A stretch of DNA of 64,000 bases from Planotetraspora phitsanulokensis (GTDB lineage: Bacteria; Actinomycetota; Actinomycetes; Streptosporangiales; Streptosporangiaceae). This document shows positions 916-6,981 of this stretch, in pieces. Position numbers and translations under genes: made by a program. Position 1 is the first letter of the stretch, and each line of letters opens with the position of its first letter. Where the stretch lies: contig NZ_BOOP01000013.1 of assembly GCF_016863295.1 (NCBI RefSeq), forward strand, positions 62,001 to 126,000. Direction: 5' to 3'. Below the pieces are notes generated by a model. It ran no database searches. It saw only the letters and a program-made list of their open reading frames with translations, and was not told the origin of the DNA.

Positions 916-1671
916 ATGACGTTCACGACGATGAACCCGACGTCCATGGCCATGCCGCTGGGATTCGGATCCCAGCAGTTCTCTCCTCAGCACCTCGGTC
1001 AGATGTCCCCGGCATCCTCGATCAACGCGCCGCACCTGCAGGCGCTTCAACAGCTCCAGGTGCTGCAGCAGGCTCAGGCCCTGCAGCAGGCACACGCTCA
1101 GGCCCAGGCCCTTCAGCAGGCGCAGGCTCAGGCCCAGGCCCTGCAGCAGGCACATGTTCAGGCTCAGGCTCTGCAGCAGGCTCAGGCCCTGCAGCAGATG
1201 TCGCCGTTCGGGGCCGTGGCGCCGCAGGACGAGCAGGTCCTGCCCCAGGAACACGTCCTGAGCCCGGCCACCTTCTGGAACAAGGTCGCTCACATCGGCG
1301 CCCGGCACGGCGCCGCAGTCGTCAGGCAGATCCTCGACGGCATCCAGTTCCAGCAGGTGGCCGCTCAGCAGGCGGCCTTCCAGCAGCTCGGCCAGGTGAC
1401 GCCGTTCCAGCAGGCCGCCCAACAGCAGGCGGCACAGCAGATGGCACAGCAGATGGCCCAGCACCTGCCGCAGCCGCTGCAGCAGGTGGCCTTGGCGTTC
1501 GGCCAGGCCCAGCCCTTCCAGCAGCCGGCTCAGGCCGTCCTGCACCACCTGCAGCAGCAGGTGCCGGTCGCGTTCGGCCAGGCGCCGCACCAGCAGGTGC
1601 CGGTCCCGTTCGGCCAGGCCGGCCAGGTGTCCCACCAGCAGGTACCGGTGGCCGCCGGCTCCGGGTTCTGA
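916..1671 (+). CDS. Glutamine-rich low-complexity repeat protein
   Basis: This 251-aa protein starts at ATG 916 behind a clear AAGGAG. Residues about 43-95 are near-perfect repeats of the QALQQAQ/QAHAQ type, encoded by a visible DNA tandem repeat at about 1051-1200. A short ordinary segment follows (around VLSPATFWNKVAHIG), then a second Gln-rich half full of FQQ, AQQ and QQVPV. There is no signal peptide, no transmembrane segment and no Cys. The composition suggests a coiled-coil or prion-like scaffold. It is followed after 14 nt by a 112-aa gene and then by a cytosolic subtilase, so the three may work together, perhaps with this protein as a substrate; that is inference. I recognise no named family. 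Confidence 0.75.
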   Translation: MTFTTMNPTSMAMPLGFGSQQFSPQHLGQMSPASSINAPHLQALQQLQVLQQAQALQQAHAQAQALQQAQAQAQALQQAHVQAQALQQAQALQQMSPFGAVAPQDEQVLPQEHVLSPATFWNKVAHIGARHGAAVVRQILDGIQFQQVAAQQAAFQQLGQVTPFQQAAQQQAAQQMAQQMAQHLPQPLQQVALAFGQAQPFQQPAQAVLHHLQQQVPVAFGQAPHQQVPVPFGQAGQVSHQQVPVAAGSGF

Positions 1672-1685
1672 GCGGAGGACATGAG

Positions 1686-2024
1686 GTGGACTCGATCGGT
1701 GAGGGGCCGCTCAGGCCCGGCGCCGGCTCGGGTGGAACGGATGCGGCCCCGGGTCCGGCGACGACGCCGGACCCGGGGTCGCCCGGACCGTCCGGCCTCC
1801 TGCAGGTGCATTGCGCCATGAGCCTGCAGCAGCTCTACGCCTGGTTGCAGGCGACCGTTCCACAGGCGCCGCAGGTCGCCGGGGTCGTGCCTCTGGTCGT
1901 GCGGGCGGTGCAGCTCTACCGCGCCGGGCAGCACGAGGCGTGCGTGGCCCAGATCCAGTCGGTGCTCGACAGCATCAACGCCGGTCACTGGTCCGCCGCT
2001 CCGGTGACCCGGCCCTTCGCCTGA
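1686..2024 (+). CDS. Small helical protein between the Gln-rich gene and the subtilase
   Basis: This is a 112-aa frame if it starts at GTG 1686, which has GGAGG about 7 nt upstream. An internal ATG at 1818 would give only 68 residues. The first about 44 residues are Pro/Gly/Ala-rich and probably disordered. The C-terminal half (from about MSLQQLYAWLQ to the end) reads as amphipathic helices with regular Leu/Val spacing, somewhat like a short TPR-type hairpin. No catalytic motif is visible. It begins 14 nt after the Gln-rich gene and ends 63 nt before the S8 peptidase on the same strand, so one transcript is likely. The family is not recognised. Confidence 0.6.
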   Translation: MDSIGEGPLRPGAGSGGTDAAPGPATTPDPGSPGPSGLLQVHCAMSLQQLYAWLQATVPQAPQVAGVVPLVVRAVQLYRAGQHEACVAQIQSVLDSINAGHWSAAPVTRPFA

Positions 2025-2087
2025 CCTCGGCCGAGCCGTGGGGGTGCGGCCAGTAGACCAGCCTGAGCTGGGGAAAGTCGGGACGCA

Positions 2088-4415
2088 GTGACCACTGACG
2101 ACAAGCCCAAGAACGGAAGCGGGCAGTCGCGCCCGACGGGTGCGAACCGGTCGCGGCAGACGTCGCGGCAGGGCCCGCAGCCGGTGCTGCCGCGCCCGCT
2201 GCGGTACATGGTCGCGCTGCCTCCGCCCCAGGCCCGTCCGCAGGCGGGAGCGACCGGCGCGGTCCTCGACGCCGACGGGCTGCTGCGGCTGCTCGAGGGC
2301 GATCCCGAGGTCGGCGTGCGCCGGCGGCTCCCGGCGAGGTCCGGCGAGCCGGGCGCGGGAGGCCGTCCCTTCCCCTCCGTCGTGGTCGTGGACATGACCG
2401 CCGAGCACGCGGCGGAGCTGCGGCGGCGGCTGCCGCAGCTGCACATCGAGCGCGACCGGCTGCTGACCTACAGCGAGGTGCCGGTGCCGCCCCGAAGGAG
2501 GAAACCGGCGCCGGCCGCGCCGCCCCTGGGGATCGAGAGCACCTTCGCCTTCCTGGTGCGGGACTCCGCGGGCGCGCCGGTGCCGGGCGCCGTCGTCGTG
2601 CTGACCGGTTCCGGGCTGCCCGCGCAGGCGGTGACCGGGCCGGACGGCCGTGCCACGGTCACGATGGCGGGCGAGACGGCGGAGTCGATCGTCAGCGTCC
2701 TCGTCACCCCGCGATCCGGCCACTGGAGCGTGTACGTGGAGCGCCCGGCCCTTTCGTCGAGCCGGGAGAACCTGATCGAGCCGGAGACGTTGTCCGAAGG
2801 GCTCGAAGGACTCCCCGGACGGCAGGTCTTCGGCTGGGGGCAGACGGCGATGGATCTCGACCGCCTCCCACGTGCTCTCAGAGGCGCGGGAGCCAAGATC
2901 GCGATAATCGACTCGGGGGCGGCGACCGAGCATCCCGACCTCATCGGACAGGTGACGTGCGGGATCGACCTGGCGGGTGGGAAGCCCGACGGCTGGGCCG
3001 ACGACACCGCCCATCACGGCTCTCACTGCGCCGGGATCATCGCGGGCGGGGACGACGGCCGGGGGATCGTGGGATTCGCCGCGGAGGCCGAGGTCCACGC
3101 CTGCAAGATCTTCCCGGGCGGCCGTTTCAGCGACCTCATCGAGGCGCTCGACTACTGCATCGACCAGCGGATCGACGTGATCAATCTCAGCCTCGGCAGC
3201 CGCCATCCGTCGCGGCTCGTCGCCGCGAAGATCGACGAGGCGCGCCGGGCGGGGGTGGCCTGCGTCGTCGCCGCCGGAAGCGACGGAGGCTCCGTGTGCT
3301 TCCCCGGCACTCTGCCGACCGTGCTGACCGTGGCCGCGATCGGGAAACTGGGGACGTTCCCCGACGGCACCGGGCACGCCGCCGAGGTCCGGGGACCGGT
3401 GACGGGGGAGGGCTACTTCTCTCCTCTGTTCACCTGCCGGGGGCCCGAGGTTGACGTGTGCGCCCCCGGAGTCGCGGTGCCGTCGTGCGTCCCTCCGGGG
3501 ACCTACGCGGCCTGGGACGGCACGTCCATGGCCGCGCCGCACGTCACCGGGCTGGCCGCGCTCGTGCTGGCCCATCATGAGGACTTCCGTCACGCGTACG
3601 TCCGGCGCGACGCCCGCCGCGTCGACCGGCTCTTCCACGTCATCAGGTCCAGCTGCCAGGCGCTCGACCTGGGTGATCCGTACCGGACGGGGGCGGGGCT
3701 GCCGAACGTGCTGCGTGCTCTGGGCCCGGCGCTCACCCAGGTGACGCCGCAGCCCGAGGAGGTGCGGAGGTGGTCCGTCGAGCTCACCGCCGAGATGGTC
3801 CTCGCGGGGCTGACGGCGCTCGGCCCGGCTCAGGCCGACCCGAACCAGATGGGCCCCAATCAGATGGGCCCCAATCAGGTGGGTGCGGATCAGACCGGCG
3901 GGGCAGGGCACGCCCAGGCGGCCGGAGCGGGTCCCGCGGCGGGCACCGCGCCGATGAACGGCTACGCCCCGCAGGACGGTTTCGCGCCGTCGCCGGCCGG
4001 CATGGCCGTCATGAACGGCCCCGCGCAGGTGGACGGGATGATGCCGGCCAACGGGCTCCCCGCCGGTCCCGGGCGCACGCCCGGCGCTGCCGCGGGGCCG
4101 AGCGTCCTGGCGGCCTCGAACGGCTCTGACGCCGCGGGAGCCGTACCGGCCGGTGATCCGGAGAGGGCGGCGGGCGACGGCGCCGGGGCGGCGAACGCGA
4201 CTCCTGCGGCCTCCGGGGCCGACGGCGCTCCTGCACCGGGGGTGACGGCGGAGACCGGAGCGATTTTCGACGGGGTTCCAGGCGGAGCCGCGACGGTGGG
4301 GGGTGGCGCACACGACGGGCTACGGGACGGGACGGCCGCGCTCGCGTGGCTGGCCCGGGAGATGGGCGCAGCAGGACTCATCGCCGGCCGGCGTGGCGCC
4401 GGCCCGCTCCTGTGA
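2088..4415 (+). CDS. Cytosolic subtilisin-like serine peptidase (S8) with disordered tail
   Basis: The protein has 775 aa from GTG 2088. There is no signal peptide, which is unusual for a subtilase. Residues about 40-125 resemble a peptidase propeptide, about 145-225 an Ig-like or carboxypeptidase-regulatory beta domain, and about 265-520 the catalytic domain. The triad is visible: Asp in IIDSGAATEHPD (about 273), His in HHGSHCAG (about 311) and Ser in GTSMAAPH (about 478). The oxyanion-hole Asn is replaced by Ser in AAGSDGG (about 397). The last about 200 residues are Ala/Gly/Pro/Met-rich, with short PNQMG repeats. Position suggests that the two preceding proteins are partners or substrates. 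The peptidase call is firm; its target is unknown. Confidence 0.88.
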   Translation: MTTDDKPKNGSGQSRPTGANRSRQTSRQGPQPVLPRPLRYMVALPPPQARPQAGATGAVLDADGLLRLLEGDPEVGVRRRLPARSGEPGAGGRPFPSVVVVDMTAEHAAELRRRLPQLHIERDRLLTYSEVPVPPRRRKPAPAAPPLGIESTFAFLVRDSAGAPVPGAVVVLTGSGLPAQAVTGPDGRATVTMAGETAESIVSVLVTPRSGHWSVYVERPALSSSRENLIEPETLSEGLEGLPGRQVFGWGQTAMDLDRLPRALRGAGAKIAIIDSGAATEHPDLIGQVTCGIDLAGGKPDGWADDTAHHGSHCAGIIAGGDDGRGIVGFAAEAEVHACKIFPGGRFSDLIEALDYCIDQRIDVINLSLGSRHPSRLVAAKIDEARRAGVACVVAAGSDGGSVCFPGTLPTVLTVAAIGKLGTFPDGTGHAAEVRGPVTGEGYFSPLFTCRGPEVDVCAPGVAVPSCVPPGTYAAWDGTSMAAPHVTGLAALVLAHHEDFRHAYVRRDARRVDRLFHVIRSSCQALDLGDPYRTGAGLPNVLRALGPALTQVTPQPEEVRRWSVELTAEMVLAGLTALGPAQADPNQMGPNQMGPNQVGADQTGGAGHAQAAGAGPAAGTAPMNGYAPQDGFAPSPAGMAVMNGPAQVDGMMPANGLPAGPGRTPGAAAGPSVLAASNGSDAAGAVPAGDPERAAGDGAGAANATPAASGADGAPAPGVTAETGAIFDGVPGGAATVGGGAHDGLRDGTAALAWLAREMGAAGLIAGRRGAGPLL

Positions 4416-4441: not shown

Positions 4442-4714
4442 TCAGCGGCGCTCGCGCGACACCGCTCCGGCCATCTGGGCCACGTCCTCGGCGCCGTCGC
4501 CGATCAGCTTCGCCGCCAGATCCGACAACGCCCGGCCGACGGCGAGCTCGTCGCCGATCTCCGGCACCGGGCGGTCGGAGGGATTGCGCCGGGCATGGGC
4601 GACGCTCTCGTGCCTGCGTCCCGCGTCGGTGTACAGCACCGCGGTCGCGGTGGTGACGTCGTCGTTCTCGTCCTCGGTGAGGAAGACCTCGACCGTCCAT
4701 CGCTTGGTTTCCAT
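4442..4714 (-). CDS. DUF1876 domain protein
   Basis: This protein is 90 aa from ATG 4714; a GTG three codons earlier (4723) is also possible. It shows the DUF1876 pattern: a beta-rich start (KRWTVEVFLTEDEND), an Arg/His/Asn-rich middle (HARRNPSDRPVPEIGDELAVGRAL) and a helical end. Actinobacteria commonly keep these small proteins beside universal stress proteins, as here, where the neighbour is divergent. The molecular role is unknown. A GGGAC...CCC box in the shared promoter region suggests joint control with the stress protein. Confidence 0.85.
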   Translation of the reverse strand: METKRWTVEVFLTEDENDDVTTATAVLYTDAGRRHESVAHARRNPSDRPVPEIGDELAVGRALSDLAAKLIGDGAEDVAQMAGAVSRERR

Positions 4715-4762
4715 GGCGAACACCCCCGACTCAGCATCTCTCCGGGGCGGGCGCGGCCGGAA

Positions 4763-4776
4763 GGGACTTTCGGCCC
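4763..4776. promoter_or_regulatory. DosR/OsdR-like box
   Basis: GGGACTTTCGGCCC lies in the 111-bp divergent promoter between the DUF1876 gene and the universal stress protein gene. It fits the GGGAC-N4-G-N-CCC core known for DosR/DevR in mycobacteria and for OsdR-type regulators in Streptomyces. A second copy precedes the CBS-BON gene. The assignment is by resemblance only. Confidence 0.5.
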
Positions 4777-4825
4777 GGTACGGCCGGACCCGCGCGGGAA
4801 CGCCAGGTGAAAGGAAGGAAAGCCC

Positions 4826-5671
4826 ATGCCTGATCCGATCATCGTCGGCGCCGACGGCTCACCCGCCGCCTTGGCCGCCGTGGAATGGGCGGCCGACGAC
4901 GCCGCCCGTCAGAGGCGCCCGCTGCGCCTGGTGTCCGTCGTCGACCGCTGGGCGTACGGCATCGTGAAGTTCCCCACCACCGCGGGCGACCCCCTGACGA
5001 TGCACGCCGAGCGGGCGCTGGCCGAGGCCGAGACGGTGGCCAACAAGCGCCAGCCTGACGTGCCGGTCAGCATCGAGATCATCGAGGGGCTGCCCGCCAA
5101 GATCCTGCGCGACAAGGCCAAGGAGGCGGCCGAGATCGTGCTCGGAACCCGCGGACTGGGCGGGTTCACCGGCATCCTGATCGGCTCCGTCAGCACCCAT
5201 GTCGCCGGTCAGGCGCACGGCCCGGTCGTGGTCGTGCGTCCCGGATGGAAGGACACGCACGGCGAGGTGGTCGTCGGCATCGACGACTCGGCCGAATGCG
5301 AGGCGGCGATCGCCTACGCGGTCGCGCAGGCCGAGGCCCGCGGCAGCACGCTCCGGGCGGTCTACGCGTGGCAGCTGCCGGTGCACGCGCTCGCCCCCGA
5401 GATCGGCTACGACATCGACGGGGTGCGCGAGGCCCAGCACAAGGTGGCGGCGGAGAAACTCGCGCCCTGGCGGCGGCAGTCCGACGTGACGATCATGGAG
5501 GACGTCGTGTGCGCGCACCCGGTCGACGCGCTGACCGACGCCTCCGAGGCCGCGGACCTGCTCGTGGTGGGCTCACACGGCCGGGGCGCGCTCGGGTCGG
5601 TGATGCTGGGATCGGTCAGCAGGGGAGTCCTGCACCACGCCCACTGCCCGGTGGCCGTGGTCCGGCCCTGA
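4826..5671 (+). CDS. Tandem universal stress protein
   Basis: A 281-aa protein starts at ATG 4826 behind AAGGAAGG. It has two Usp domains: residues 1-140, opening with IIVGADGS and ending near GTRGLGGFTGILIGS, and residues 145-281, opening with VVVGIDDS and ending near GSHGRGALGSVMLGS. Both halves keep the G-x2-G-x9-G-(S/T) ATP-binding signature. Tandem Usp proteins of this kind are classic members of hypoxia or dormancy regulons. The neighbours DUF1876 and CBS-BON, and the upstream GGGAC...CCC box, support that role here. The exact stress is not shown by the sequence. Confidence 0.93.
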   Translation: MPDPIIVGADGSPAALAAVEWAADDAARQRRPLRLVSVVDRWAYGIVKFPTTAGDPLTMHAERALAEAETVANKRQPDVPVSIEIIEGLPAKILRDKAKEAAEIVLGTRGLGGFTGILIGSVSTHVAGQAHGPVVVVRPGWKDTHGEVVVGIDDSAECEAAIAYAVAQAEARGSTLRAVYAWQLPVHALAPEIGYDIDGVREAQHKVAAEKLAPWRRQSDVTIMEDVVCAHPVDALTDASEAADLLVVGSHGRGALGSVMLGSVSRGVLHHAHCPVAVVRP

Positions 5672-5699
5672 CACGCCTGACCGGCCGTCGTCGTTCGCG

Positions 5700-6395
5700 T
5701 CACTCGTTCTCGAGCGTGTCGTCACGCTCCCAGGTCAGCCGGTCGACCACGTCGACGACGCCGTTGACGCGTTCGGTCATCCGTACGAGCGTCATGACGT
5801 CGCCACGACGGGGCACCGTGCCGCTGAGCGTGACCACCGCGTCGGAGACCGCCACGTGGACGTGCGACGTGTCCGCCCACAGGGCACCCTCGACGATGTC
5901 GTCGCGGATCTCGCGGGCGACCTCCTCGTCGCTCCTGACGATCGTCTTGAGCAGGTCGGTACGGCTGACCACGCCCTCGAGCCGCCCGTCGTCGTCGACC
6001 ACGGGGAGCCGCTTGACGCCGTGCTCGCTCATGAGCCTGGCGGCGCTCACGGCGTTGGTGTGCGGCCTGACCGTTACGGCGGGCGCCGTCATCAACTGGG
6101 CGGCGGTCTCGGCCCGGGCCTTGGCCGCGACGTTTCTGGAGGGCGAGCGGACGCGCTCACGGAGCCGCACGCGCACGGGAGGGCGGTAGCCCTCACCGTA
6201 GAACTGCTCCCTGAACTCCTCCCTGTGGAGCAGGTCGGCCTCCGACACGACGCCGAGCACGTGGCCCTCGCCGTCCACCACCGGCACGGCGCTCACGCCG
6301 TAGGTGAGCAGCACCTCGGCGACGTCCCTGAACGACGTGCAGCCGTTGACGGACACGACCTGCCTGGACATGACGTCCCGCACCTTCATGTGCAT
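5700..6395 (-). CDS. CBS-pair and BON domain protein
   Basis: A 231-aa protein begins MHMKVRDVM at ATG 6395, preceded by a GAGGGGGG ribosome site; further upstream in-frame starts look spurious. The first CBS motif covers about residues 5-55 (VSAVPVVDGEGHVLGVVSEADLL), the second about 85-140 (VKRLPVVDDDGRLEGVVSRTDLL), and a BON domain about 155-220 (VAVSDAVVTLSGTV). CBS pairs bind adenosyl ligands, and BON domains bind membranes or other proteins. The protein resembles DosR-regulon CBS proteins such as Hrp1 with an added BON domain. It is convergent with the stress protein gene, 28 nt apart. Confidence 0.92.
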   Translation of the reverse strand: MHMKVRDVMSRQVVSVNGCTSFRDVAEVLLTYGVSAVPVVDGEGHVLGVVSEADLLHREEFREQFYGEGYRPPVRVRLRERVRSPSRNVAAKARAETAAQLMTAPAVTVRPHTNAVSAARLMSEHGVKRLPVVDDDGRLEGVVSRTDLLKTIVRSDEEVAREIRDDIVEGALWADTSHVHVAVSDAVVTLSGTVPRRGDVMTLVRMTERVNGVVDVVDRLTWERDDTLENE

Positions 6396-6464
6396 GATCA
6401 GCCCCCCTCGCGGCGGTGACGCGGCCCCCACCGCCATTTCACCGGAGGACGGCTCGGCGCACAG

Positions 6465-6478
6465 GGGGCGGAGGTCCC
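6465..6478. promoter_or_regulatory. Second DosR/OsdR-like box
   Basis: On the minus strand the sequence reads GGGACCTCCGCCCC, about 70 nt upstream of the CBS-BON start codon. It shares the GGGAC-N4-G-N-CCC layout of the box at 4763. Two such boxes in front of typical dormancy genes strengthen both calls, but no binding data are available. Confidence 0.45.
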
Positions 6479-6537
6479 GGGTGCCAGGGCCGTTCGGCCA
6501 CTGCGGGCGTCCGTTCGATCGGGTGTTCCCCTGCAGG

Positions 6538-6981
6538 TCAGGGGTTGGAGTACACGCGCCGAGGAGTCAGCAGGACGGCGGTGCGCCGCTCCTCGGCCAT
6601 GACCCGGTCGTACTCGTCCCAGTCGTCGTGGGTACCGCCCGCCGCCTTGAAGATCTTCCTGAGCAGAAGCCGGAGTCCCTCCGCGTCGATCCCGGCGAGC
6701 GGGTCGTCGGGCCCGGCCAGGTCGGTCCCGCCCTCCGCCGCCGTCCACTGCCAGCCGCTGTGCACCACGATGGTGGCGTTCGGCCTGGCCCGCAGGTCCG
6801 CCAGTTTCCGGGCGGTTCCCCGCGCGACGAACCCGACCACCGACTGGCCGGTGGCCGGATGATCGAGTACCCCCGCGTTGACCACGGAGGAGCGGATGCC
6901 ACCGTCGGGGCGCAGGGTCGAGACCACACAGAGGCCGTGGTCACCGGAGACGAGGCCGGCGAATTCCGCGAGATCGGTCAC
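6538..6981 (-). CDS. F420-dependent PPOX-class oxidoreductase
   Basis: A 147-aa protein starts at GTG 6981. It has the split-barrel FMN/F420-binding pattern of the pyridoxamine-5'-phosphate oxidase superfamily: HGLCVVSTLRPDGGIRSSVV near the N-terminus, then VVGFVARGTARKLADLRARPNATIVV. The length and the late EYDRVMAEERRTAVLLTP segment match the actinobacterial TIGR03618-type F420 group. The likely role is reduction of an unknown substrate with F420H2 in the cytosol. It reads in the same direction as the CBS-BON gene but 142 nt upstream of it, so co-transcription is uncertain. Confidence 0.85.
   Translation of the reverse strand: MTDLAEFAGLVSGDHGLCVVSTLRPDGGIRSSVVNAGVLDHPATGQSVVGFVARGTARKLADLRARPNATIVVHSGWQWTAAEGGTDLAGPDDPLAGIDAEGLRLLLRKIFKAAGGTHDDWDEYDRVMAEERRTAVLLTPRRVYSNP

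Follow-up and report, generated by a model that had tools for sequence, protein, structure and literature searches.

Among the described systems built on subtilases are IetAS, an anti-phage system that combines an ATPase with a subtilase, and the germination pseudoproteases CspBA and CspC, in which the subtilase fold has lost catalytic residues. In the fungus Podospora the S8 protease HET-Q2 activates a pore former, HET-Q1, by cutting it (PMC10989679). We have analyzed a 64,000-nucleotide stretch of the Planotetraspora phitsanulokensis genome (contig NZ_BOOP01000013.1, positions 62,001 to 126,000; hereafter the window), near the beginning of which an S8 (subtilase) peptidase gene is preceded by genes for a glutamine (Gln)-rich repeat protein and a small, predicted helical protein. 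This gene unit is real, coding and conserved, and its genes form a linked set. A first-pass annotation made from the sequence had known of no described system of this composition, and none was found in the literature searched, which covered few subscription papers. The reading that we prefer, at somewhat short of an even chance, is that the unit encodes a cytosolic complex in which a subtilase is gated by an inhibitor and has a repeat protein as its dedicated partner, this partner being a substrate where the enzyme is active. That the three genes make a dedicated complex is, taken by itself, quite probable. The three genes are as follows.

916-1671, + strand: gene 1, an open reading frame (ORF) for a Gln-rich repeat protein of 251 amino acids, a candidate scaffold or substrate
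1686-2024, + strand: gene 2, 112 amino acids, GTG start, a small helical protein with three helices predicted at residues 35-98, preceded by an N-terminus of low confidence
2088-4415, + strand: gene 3, the S8 (subtilase) peptidase, 775 amino acids, GTG start, no evident signal

The gaps between these genes are 14 and 63 nucleotides and all three lie on the + strand, just as the first-pass annotation had described them. The Kyte-Doolittle mean over 19 residues peaks at 1.44 across the three proteins, within the S8 domain, so that on hydropathy alone (no signal-peptide program was used) no signal peptide or membrane segment is evident; this agrees with the earlier description of the peptidase as lacking a signal peptide, and the gene products are presumably cytosolic. 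Look-ups of the window proteins in Pfam, NCBIfam, PADLOC and PHROGs named the S8 part alone, and neither gene 1 nor gene 2 reached a curated cut-off in these four family libraries. The S8 part matches Pfam PF00082 with 132.8 bits (cut-off 21.8; expectation value (E) 2e-38) and has the Asp/His/Ser triad in order; its strongest family match is to the PHROGs phage 'protease' family phrog_3677 (E 5e-56, residues 234-566). The closest named relative is P. kaengkrachanensis, with 93% identity over 615 columns. Comparison with congeners indicates purifying selection on all three genes, with whole-gene ratios of nonsynonymous to synonymous substitution (dN/dS) of 0.23-0.56 (for gene 2, three of the four congeners only). 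The lowest ratios are those of the S8 domain (0.08-0.25). Gene 1 has a constrained stretch of its own in residues 104-150, which contain the unit discussed below, at 0.15-0.38 versus 0.33-0.60 in the remainder.

A single scan of 84,980 bacterial and archaeal species gave 466 pattern matches, of which 368 proved to be relatives of the peptidase; the best 80 of these 368 make up the set of 80 loci counted below. They span Actinomycetota, Pseudomonadota (Oxalobacteraceae, Bradyrhizobium and others) and Acidobacteriota. A gene-1-type partner, repeat-containing or Gln-rich, is found directly upstream of the peptidase in 78 of the 80 loci; the remaining two, L043 and L068, begin at a contig end. A simple rule, by which a frame of at least 85 codons with at least 8% Gln has its stop no more than 1500 bases upstream of the peptidase, catches 76 of the 80, and L044 and L091 (the latter a split peptidase) were added on reading. 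Because the loose control by 8% Gln alone is too weak to stand by itself (76/80 versus 51/212 other long open frames), a stricter rule that adds repeated six-residue words is quoted as well: Gln-rich frames with internal repeats occur in 71/80 loci versus 7 of the 212 other long open frames at the same loci. Gene 1 is partial at L052 and L092, both of which are cut by contig ends.

Gene 2 and the peptidase occur together in the window's order. The gene-2 profile matches exactly the 12 of 61 order-level genomes that have the peptidase, leaving the other 49 without a match, and gene 2 adjoins the peptidase in all 12. In a sample of 60 relatives six genomes match gene 2 strongly, and these are the six that have the peptidase; the three weak matches elsewhere have E 0.003-0.007. 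When the trio was sought in other genomes, as the first-pass annotation had proposed, homologues of the peptidase were therefore found generally to keep partners (a gene-1-type partner in 78/80 loci, gene 2 and the peptidase in one and the same set of 12/61 order-level genomes); its idea of a three-gene unit needs qualifying in one respect, since gene 2 is not universal and is found in 31/80 loci, every one in Actinomycetota. The peptidase itself is distributed patchily: it was detected in 6 of the 60 relatives, in 12 of the 61 order-level genomes and in 3 of 98 class-level genomes, all three in the window's family, by searches with a limit on the candidates scored in each genome. A plasmid search yielded two Streptomyces records (L097 and L098), both with a triad-broken peptidase. 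No relative was found in the viral contigs searched, and the 14 records matched in a phage collection match in the S8 domain only, over 30-39% of the query. Streptomyces sulfonofaciens (L046) has two divergent members of this peptidase family; about 5.6 kb lies between them, and each is accompanied by gene 2 as well as by a separate prodomain-like ORF. At L104 (G070) there is one in-frame TGA within the peptidase frame, so this family member may be decaying.

Gene 1 of the window has a Gln content of 27.5%, and two parts of it can be distinguished.

1063-1197, + strand: tandem Gln-rich linker array with 18-, 30- and 60-base periods
1240-1356, + strand: conserved amphipathic FW unit, gene 1 residues 109-147, LPQEHVLSPATFWNKVAHIGARHGAAVVRQILDGIQFQQ

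Models of three kinds of unit, glycine-zipper (GZ), FW and DF, were built from seeds in gene-1 proteins and applied to 79 of these proteins (78 loci and the window), with ten residue shuffles per protein as control. All matches scored above the best shuffle: 134 GZ matches in 45/79 proteins, 86 FW matches in 36/79 and 17 DF matches in 6/79. The GZ and FW matches lie mostly outside the seed proteins; 16 of the 17 DF matches lie inside them. The window protein carries one FW unit, which is amphipathic (shuffle p 0.017) and is itself a seed of the FW model, and seeds match by construction. At least one unit occurs in 73/80 loci, and gene-1 frames devoid of any are those of L048, L050, L052, L092 and L094; GZ and FW units occur together in several gene-1 proteins of Acrocarpospora, Nonomuraea and Bradyrhizobium. 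Amphipathicity exceeds that of a unit's own shuffles (p < 0.05) for 53/53 unique FW, 9/10 DF and 80/129 GZ units, related units not being independent of one another. The Gln-rich stretches, which vary by lineage, are thus linkers between modules. The feature that recurs across the family is a helical or glycine-zipper unit, although the first-pass annotation's "Gln-rich repeat protein" is right for this genus. Its suggestion of a prion-like protein, which depends on the lineage-variable Gln linkers, is not supported in that form, the recurring parts being amphipathic and glycine-zipper units.

Two repetitive gene-1 relatives score above a Pfam cut-off, that of L041 for SoxZ (42 bits, cut-off 25, in three stretches covering about 36/98 profile positions) and that of L056 for Na_H_antiport_1 (30.7 bits, cut-off 23.5, with no stretch passing alone); these matches, together with those to virion-protein PHROGs, were judged to be low-complexity artefacts and set aside. 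A T-[LMVI]-H ending is shared by many proteobacterial gene-1 proteins, and among the actinobacterial ones of the window's clade the usual ending is VPV-x-AG-x-[FL]. By eye, the gene-1 proteins at L050 and L097, both beside dead peptidases, appear to have in common a helical stretch between FGQQ-type linkers.

The peptidase can be divided into the following parts.

2193-2462, + strand: prodomain-like domain, peptidase residues ~36-125, beta-alpha-beta-beta-alpha-beta, homologous to a separate protein of about 90 amino acids elsewhere
2541-2699, + strand: immunoglobulin (Ig)-like/CarboxypepD_reg-like region, residues ~152-204, both Pfam matches below their cut-offs
2883-3605, + strand: S8 catalytic domain, residues 266-506, with D275, H310 and S480 and with Ser, not Asn, at oxyanion position 398
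3783-3812, + strand: first AGL motif of the tail, LTAEMVLAGL
3846-3883, + strand: PNQMG low-complexity repeat of the tail, which the first-pass annotation had also pointed out
4353-4382, + strand: second, C-terminal AGL motif, AREMGAAGLI

The catalytic residues were compared in 86 distinct peptidases. Asp, His and Ser are all kept in 81/86, and 77 of these also have the oxyanion Asn. The oxyanion position is Asn in 78 of the 86, Asp in 4, and Ser in the window and three other Planotetraspora, whereas the P. thailandica peptidase (L025) has Asn. The window peptidase remains an S8 homologue, although it is doubtful whether it is fully active. Five of the 86 have a broken triad, through a change of Ser to Ala (L050 and L098), Ser to Thr (L097), His to Arg (L108), or His and Ser to Gly (L121). 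These changes require at least two losses on a quick tree of 91 rows, which left out 14 loci and has several very long branches of unsure placement. A Gln-rich protein adjoins all five triad-broken peptidases (for L108 it was read at L123, the same place). None of these five gene-1 proteins reaches any unit-model threshold, versus units in 73 of the 77 other loci with a readable gene 1, so that ordinary units are found where the enzyme is active. On this pattern the units would accompany cutting and the Gln-rich scaffold would accompany holding; with so few losses, and with unit models made from active loci, it should be taken as a lead.

A second copy of the prodomain-like domain is a feature of many of the loci elsewhere. 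A separate prodomain-like ORF of about 90 amino acids precedes the peptidase in 55/80 loci, and in 2 further loci a second copy is fused in front of the peptidase (57/80 in total). Outside Actinomycetota the separate copy stands in the place of gene 2. The window has the cis copy only and no free one. A model of the free copies also matches the N-terminal domain of the peptidase in 78/80 loci (its training may include one split-off cis copy, L091), and the free protein is therefore a copy of the peptidase's own N-terminal domain. AlphaFold2 predicts a beta-alpha-beta-beta-alpha-beta arrangement for the domain in the window, with a predicted local distance difference test score (pLDDT) of 87. 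In 48/55 free copies a hydrophobic residue is found six positions after the conserved acidic residue of an IExD motif, and 7/55 end exactly there; this is the register at which the C-terminus of the subtilisin prodomain sits in the active site. By analogy with subtilisin, the prodomain-like copies may inhibit the protease.

The AGL motif of the tail, sometimes doubled, is found in 36/36 loci with gene 2 versus 0/50 without it, in a comparison without 19 loci that were duplicates or, in one case each, had a split gene or a gene interrupted by an in-frame stop. Both dead peptidases that have gene 2 keep the AGL tail. Gene 2 is predicted to form three helices after its low-confidence start, and its profile finds only weak matches among the sequences of solved structures, the best being SRP72, a protein with tetratricopeptide repeats (E 0.005, 26 residues). 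It may be that gene 2 binds the AGL motif, a suggestion for which the weak constraint at the C-terminus described below urges caution. The Burkholderiales peptidases shown end in Trp.

These observations could be assembled into a mechanism along the following lines. The peptidase would be made in a latent state, its N-terminal prodomain-like domain covering the active site as subtilisin prodomains do, and the second copy present in other lineages (55 free, 2 fused) would act likewise on the active site. The tail would dock through its AGL helices onto the three-helix protein encoded by gene 2. Gene 1, in which Gln-rich linkers string together amphipathic modules, glycine-zipper modules or both, would be the dedicated partner that holds the complex together, and in active lineages, such as those of Duganella or Bradyrhizobium, it would also be the substrate, so that release of the inhibitor frees its modules. 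We rate cleavage of gene 1 in the active lineages at about an even chance; that the freed modules go on to act on membranes is quite doubtful. In the window's clade, with its oxyanion Ser, cutting would probably be slow and the holding of the partner may dominate. Units and cutting go together, as this mechanism leads one to expect, because units are found in 73/80 loci and in none beside a triad-broken peptidase. The first-pass annotation had proposed a regulated aggregation or cleavage system, and the most suitable frame remains one in which a protease is combined with an adaptor and with a protein that is its scaffold or substrate; the part concerning cleavage cannot be generalized to the whole family, given the broken triads and Ser398.

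Several observations weigh against the gated complex. A VIA-align comparison matches the prodomain-like domain to a subtilisin prodomain (3cnq_P, Z score 6.6, 69 residues, root mean square deviation 2.9), and this match ties with ribosomal S6, ACT and other unrelated ferredoxin-like folds. A Foldseek search with the domain gave no match at E <= 0.001; the free-copy profile found no subtilisin prodomain among the sequences of solved structures (one unrelated match, E 0.13), and no inhibitor I9 match is listed in the Pfam scans of the window proteins and the gene-1 relatives. Because of this tie and the outcome of the profile search, the fold agrees with a prodomain without proving it. The gene 2 model is of moderate confidence only (pLDDT 70), with no solved fold at E <= 0.001. 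The AGL pattern was composed after inspection of the tails, and its contrast is mostly one between phyla, being 36/36 versus 0/3 (L050, L097 and L098) within Actinomycetota. Moreover, all 11 tails of the Bradyrhizobium group, which has no gene 2, end in a similar VGL that the pattern does not count, and constraint on the 30 C-terminal residues of the peptidase is weak (dN/dS 0.46-0.75 over 90 sites, among congeners). Finally, five peptidases have lost catalytic residues and kept the Gln-rich partner, and the window has replaced the oxyanion Asn by Ser. It follows that cleavage is not essential everywhere; with cutting lost in some lineages and the genes nevertheless kept together, the holding of the partner may be no less important than its cutting.

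In other readings proteolysis is secondary. The subtilase fold could serve mainly as the peptide-binding part of a Gln-rich scaffold or condensate, with catalysis a leftover in several lineages including the window's clade. The triad broken in 5/86 with at least two losses and a Gln-rich protein beside all five, the AGL tail retained in two dead peptidases with gene 2, the low-complexity tail of the peptidase itself and the exchange of the oxyanion Asn for Ser in the window and three other Planotetraspora all point this way. We nevertheless consider it unlikely, as D/H/S is intact in 81/86 with the oxyanion Asn in 77, the S8 domain is the most constrained part (dN/dS 0.08-0.25), the prodomain-like copies argue for the control of a real protease, and the gene-1 proteins of dead loci are those that lack GZ, FW and DF units. 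In a further reading, which we consider rather improbable, the unit would be a bacterial protein-assembly switch of a new kind: a subtilase fold, itself under the control of prodomain copies in cis and trans, would grip the amphipathic and glycine-zipper modules of a Gln-rich scaffold, and proteolysis would be optional. On that reading active lineages would cut the scaffold in order to switch it, others would be pure holders and the window's genus would stand part-way.

If instead cutting is the point of the system, its products might be the effectors. Gene 1 might be a store of membrane-active helices that are harmless while chained together, and the released subtilase might free them to permeabilize the cell's own membrane, leading to cell death or defence by the logic of gasdermins or HET-Q. 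The amphipathic units (53/53 FW, 9/10 DF) and glycine-zipper repeats would suit such a role, as would sub-threshold Pfam glycine-zipper matches in one gene-1 protein, the patchy distribution (12/61 order-level and 3/98 class-level genomes) and the precedent of a fungal S8 protease paired with a pore former, HET-Q2/HET-Q1 (PMC10989679). On the other hand, amphipathic helices pack in soluble bundles too, only 80/129 GZ units exceed their shuffles, and the window unit is too little hydrophobic to span a membrane (gene-1 maximum 0.66). The Pfam matches of the six gene-1 proteins scanned include no gasdermin, in PADLOC the window proteins resemble subtilases and IetS only in a generic way, dead enzymes retain the Gln-rich partner, and the viral contigs have no relative. 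We regard this role as quite unlikely. The freed products could also be secreted peptides, antimicrobial or signalling, if gene 1 were a polyprotein matured by the subtilase in the manner of cyanobactin or multi-copy precursors. The similar units, spaced by regular linkers, number between one and eight in a protein, and many of them end at hydrophobic-Phe positions that may be subtilase cut sites; this is compatible with such processing. It seems very unlikely all the same: within flanks of up to 6 kb no export or modifying gene adjoins the unit across phyla, the ABC-ATPase-type flank genes of 10 loci are kilobases away where measured, the window proteins have no evident signal peptide, and the PatA/PatG model TIGR03895 scores 37 bits, far below its cut-off of 421.05.

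Genes around the unit were surveyed with an ad hoc gene caller over at most 6 kb per side. After the unit in the window (4442-6981) come Rv2632c-like, universal stress protein and CBS-BON genes and a PNPOx-like gene, the last with a match below its cut-off, a neighbourhood suggestive of a dormancy or stress cluster. In the window's clade the unit may be part of such a cluster, since Rv2632c-like and universal stress protein genes recur near it in Planotetraspora, Microbispora and Sphaerimonospora; no stress-gene neighbourhood was seen in the flanks in other phyla. A gene named by eye as Hsp20-like is found near the unit in 12 loci, mostly of Microbispora. Upstream of the universal stress protein gene, at about 4762-4780, there is a gggactttcggccc-like stretch that seems to resemble DosR/OsdR boxes. 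When a recurrent transporter or second enzyme was sought across phyla, the flanks were found to share only widespread families, named by eye as zinc alcohol dehydrogenase-like, ABC ATPase-like (10 loci), short-chain dehydrogenase/reductase-like and Hsp20-like; six listed distances place the ABC-ATPase-like genes 1.5-5.1 kb from the unit. In Actinocorallia (L006 and L045) the unit is followed by a protein that, as read at L006, has three hemopexin repeats and a phage-tail lysozyme domain. A gene for a BTAD-type regulator, identified by Pfam, precedes the unit in Bradyrhizobium (L056, 3384-4208), with a very similar start at L059 and L079. The two Acidobacteriota loci share a convergent gene of about 110 amino acids on the minus strand downstream of the peptidase (L048, 7697-8029; L067, 7744-8082), that of L048 having no Pfam match.

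Comparison with known systems places the peptidase among the subtilases without identifying it with any of them. The best NCBIfam match of the S8 domain is to the mycosins of type VII secretion (TIGR03921), at 103.6 bits versus a curated cut-off of 278.75, and neither a signal nor a C-terminal membrane anchor is evident. Also rejected were QhpE (NF049966, 64.4 bits versus 165), the cyanobactin PatA/PatG protease already mentioned, and CspBA and CspC (20.8 bits versus 1250 and 13.9 versus 675), which have different partners. The likeness to IetAS consists of a subtilase with weak PADLOC similarity to IetS (E 4e-06), and this identity was rejected as well, at 11.1 bits for NF042956 versus a cut-off of 900 and with no ATPase gene in the unit. 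Subtilisin with its I9-type prodomain resembles the window peptidase in having the S8 D/H/S residues and an N-terminal beta-alpha-beta-beta-alpha-beta domain. It differs in that the window peptidase has an Ig-like region between the prodomain-like domain and the protease, no evident signal and Ser398 in place of Asn, and in that other lineages of this family have a free prodomain-like copy.

A protease with a dedicated partner and an inhibitor is a known arrangement, and the parts of this unit would work in such a recognizable manner although neither gene 1 nor gene 2 falls in a curated family. The conserved and apparently undescribed module, present in three phyla, becomes testable. Its natural series, from an active triad through a replaced oxyanion Asn to a broken triad, with the partner kept throughout, could show how proteases become binding proteins. 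We know of no counterpart, in the HET-Q and gasdermin systems, of the trans prodomain-like copy or of gene 2. By analogy, HET-Q2/HET-Q1 nevertheless appears to be the nearest working parallel. As in that pair and in bacterial gasdermin operons, a dedicated protease stands beside one partner, which theirs activates by cutting (PMC10989679); unlike them, the six gene-1 proteins scanned with Pfam have no gasdermin match, and cleavage of the partner is putative here. If it is true that freed gene-1 modules act on membranes or assemblies, the unit would be a subtilase-gated switch to set beside the gasdermin systems.

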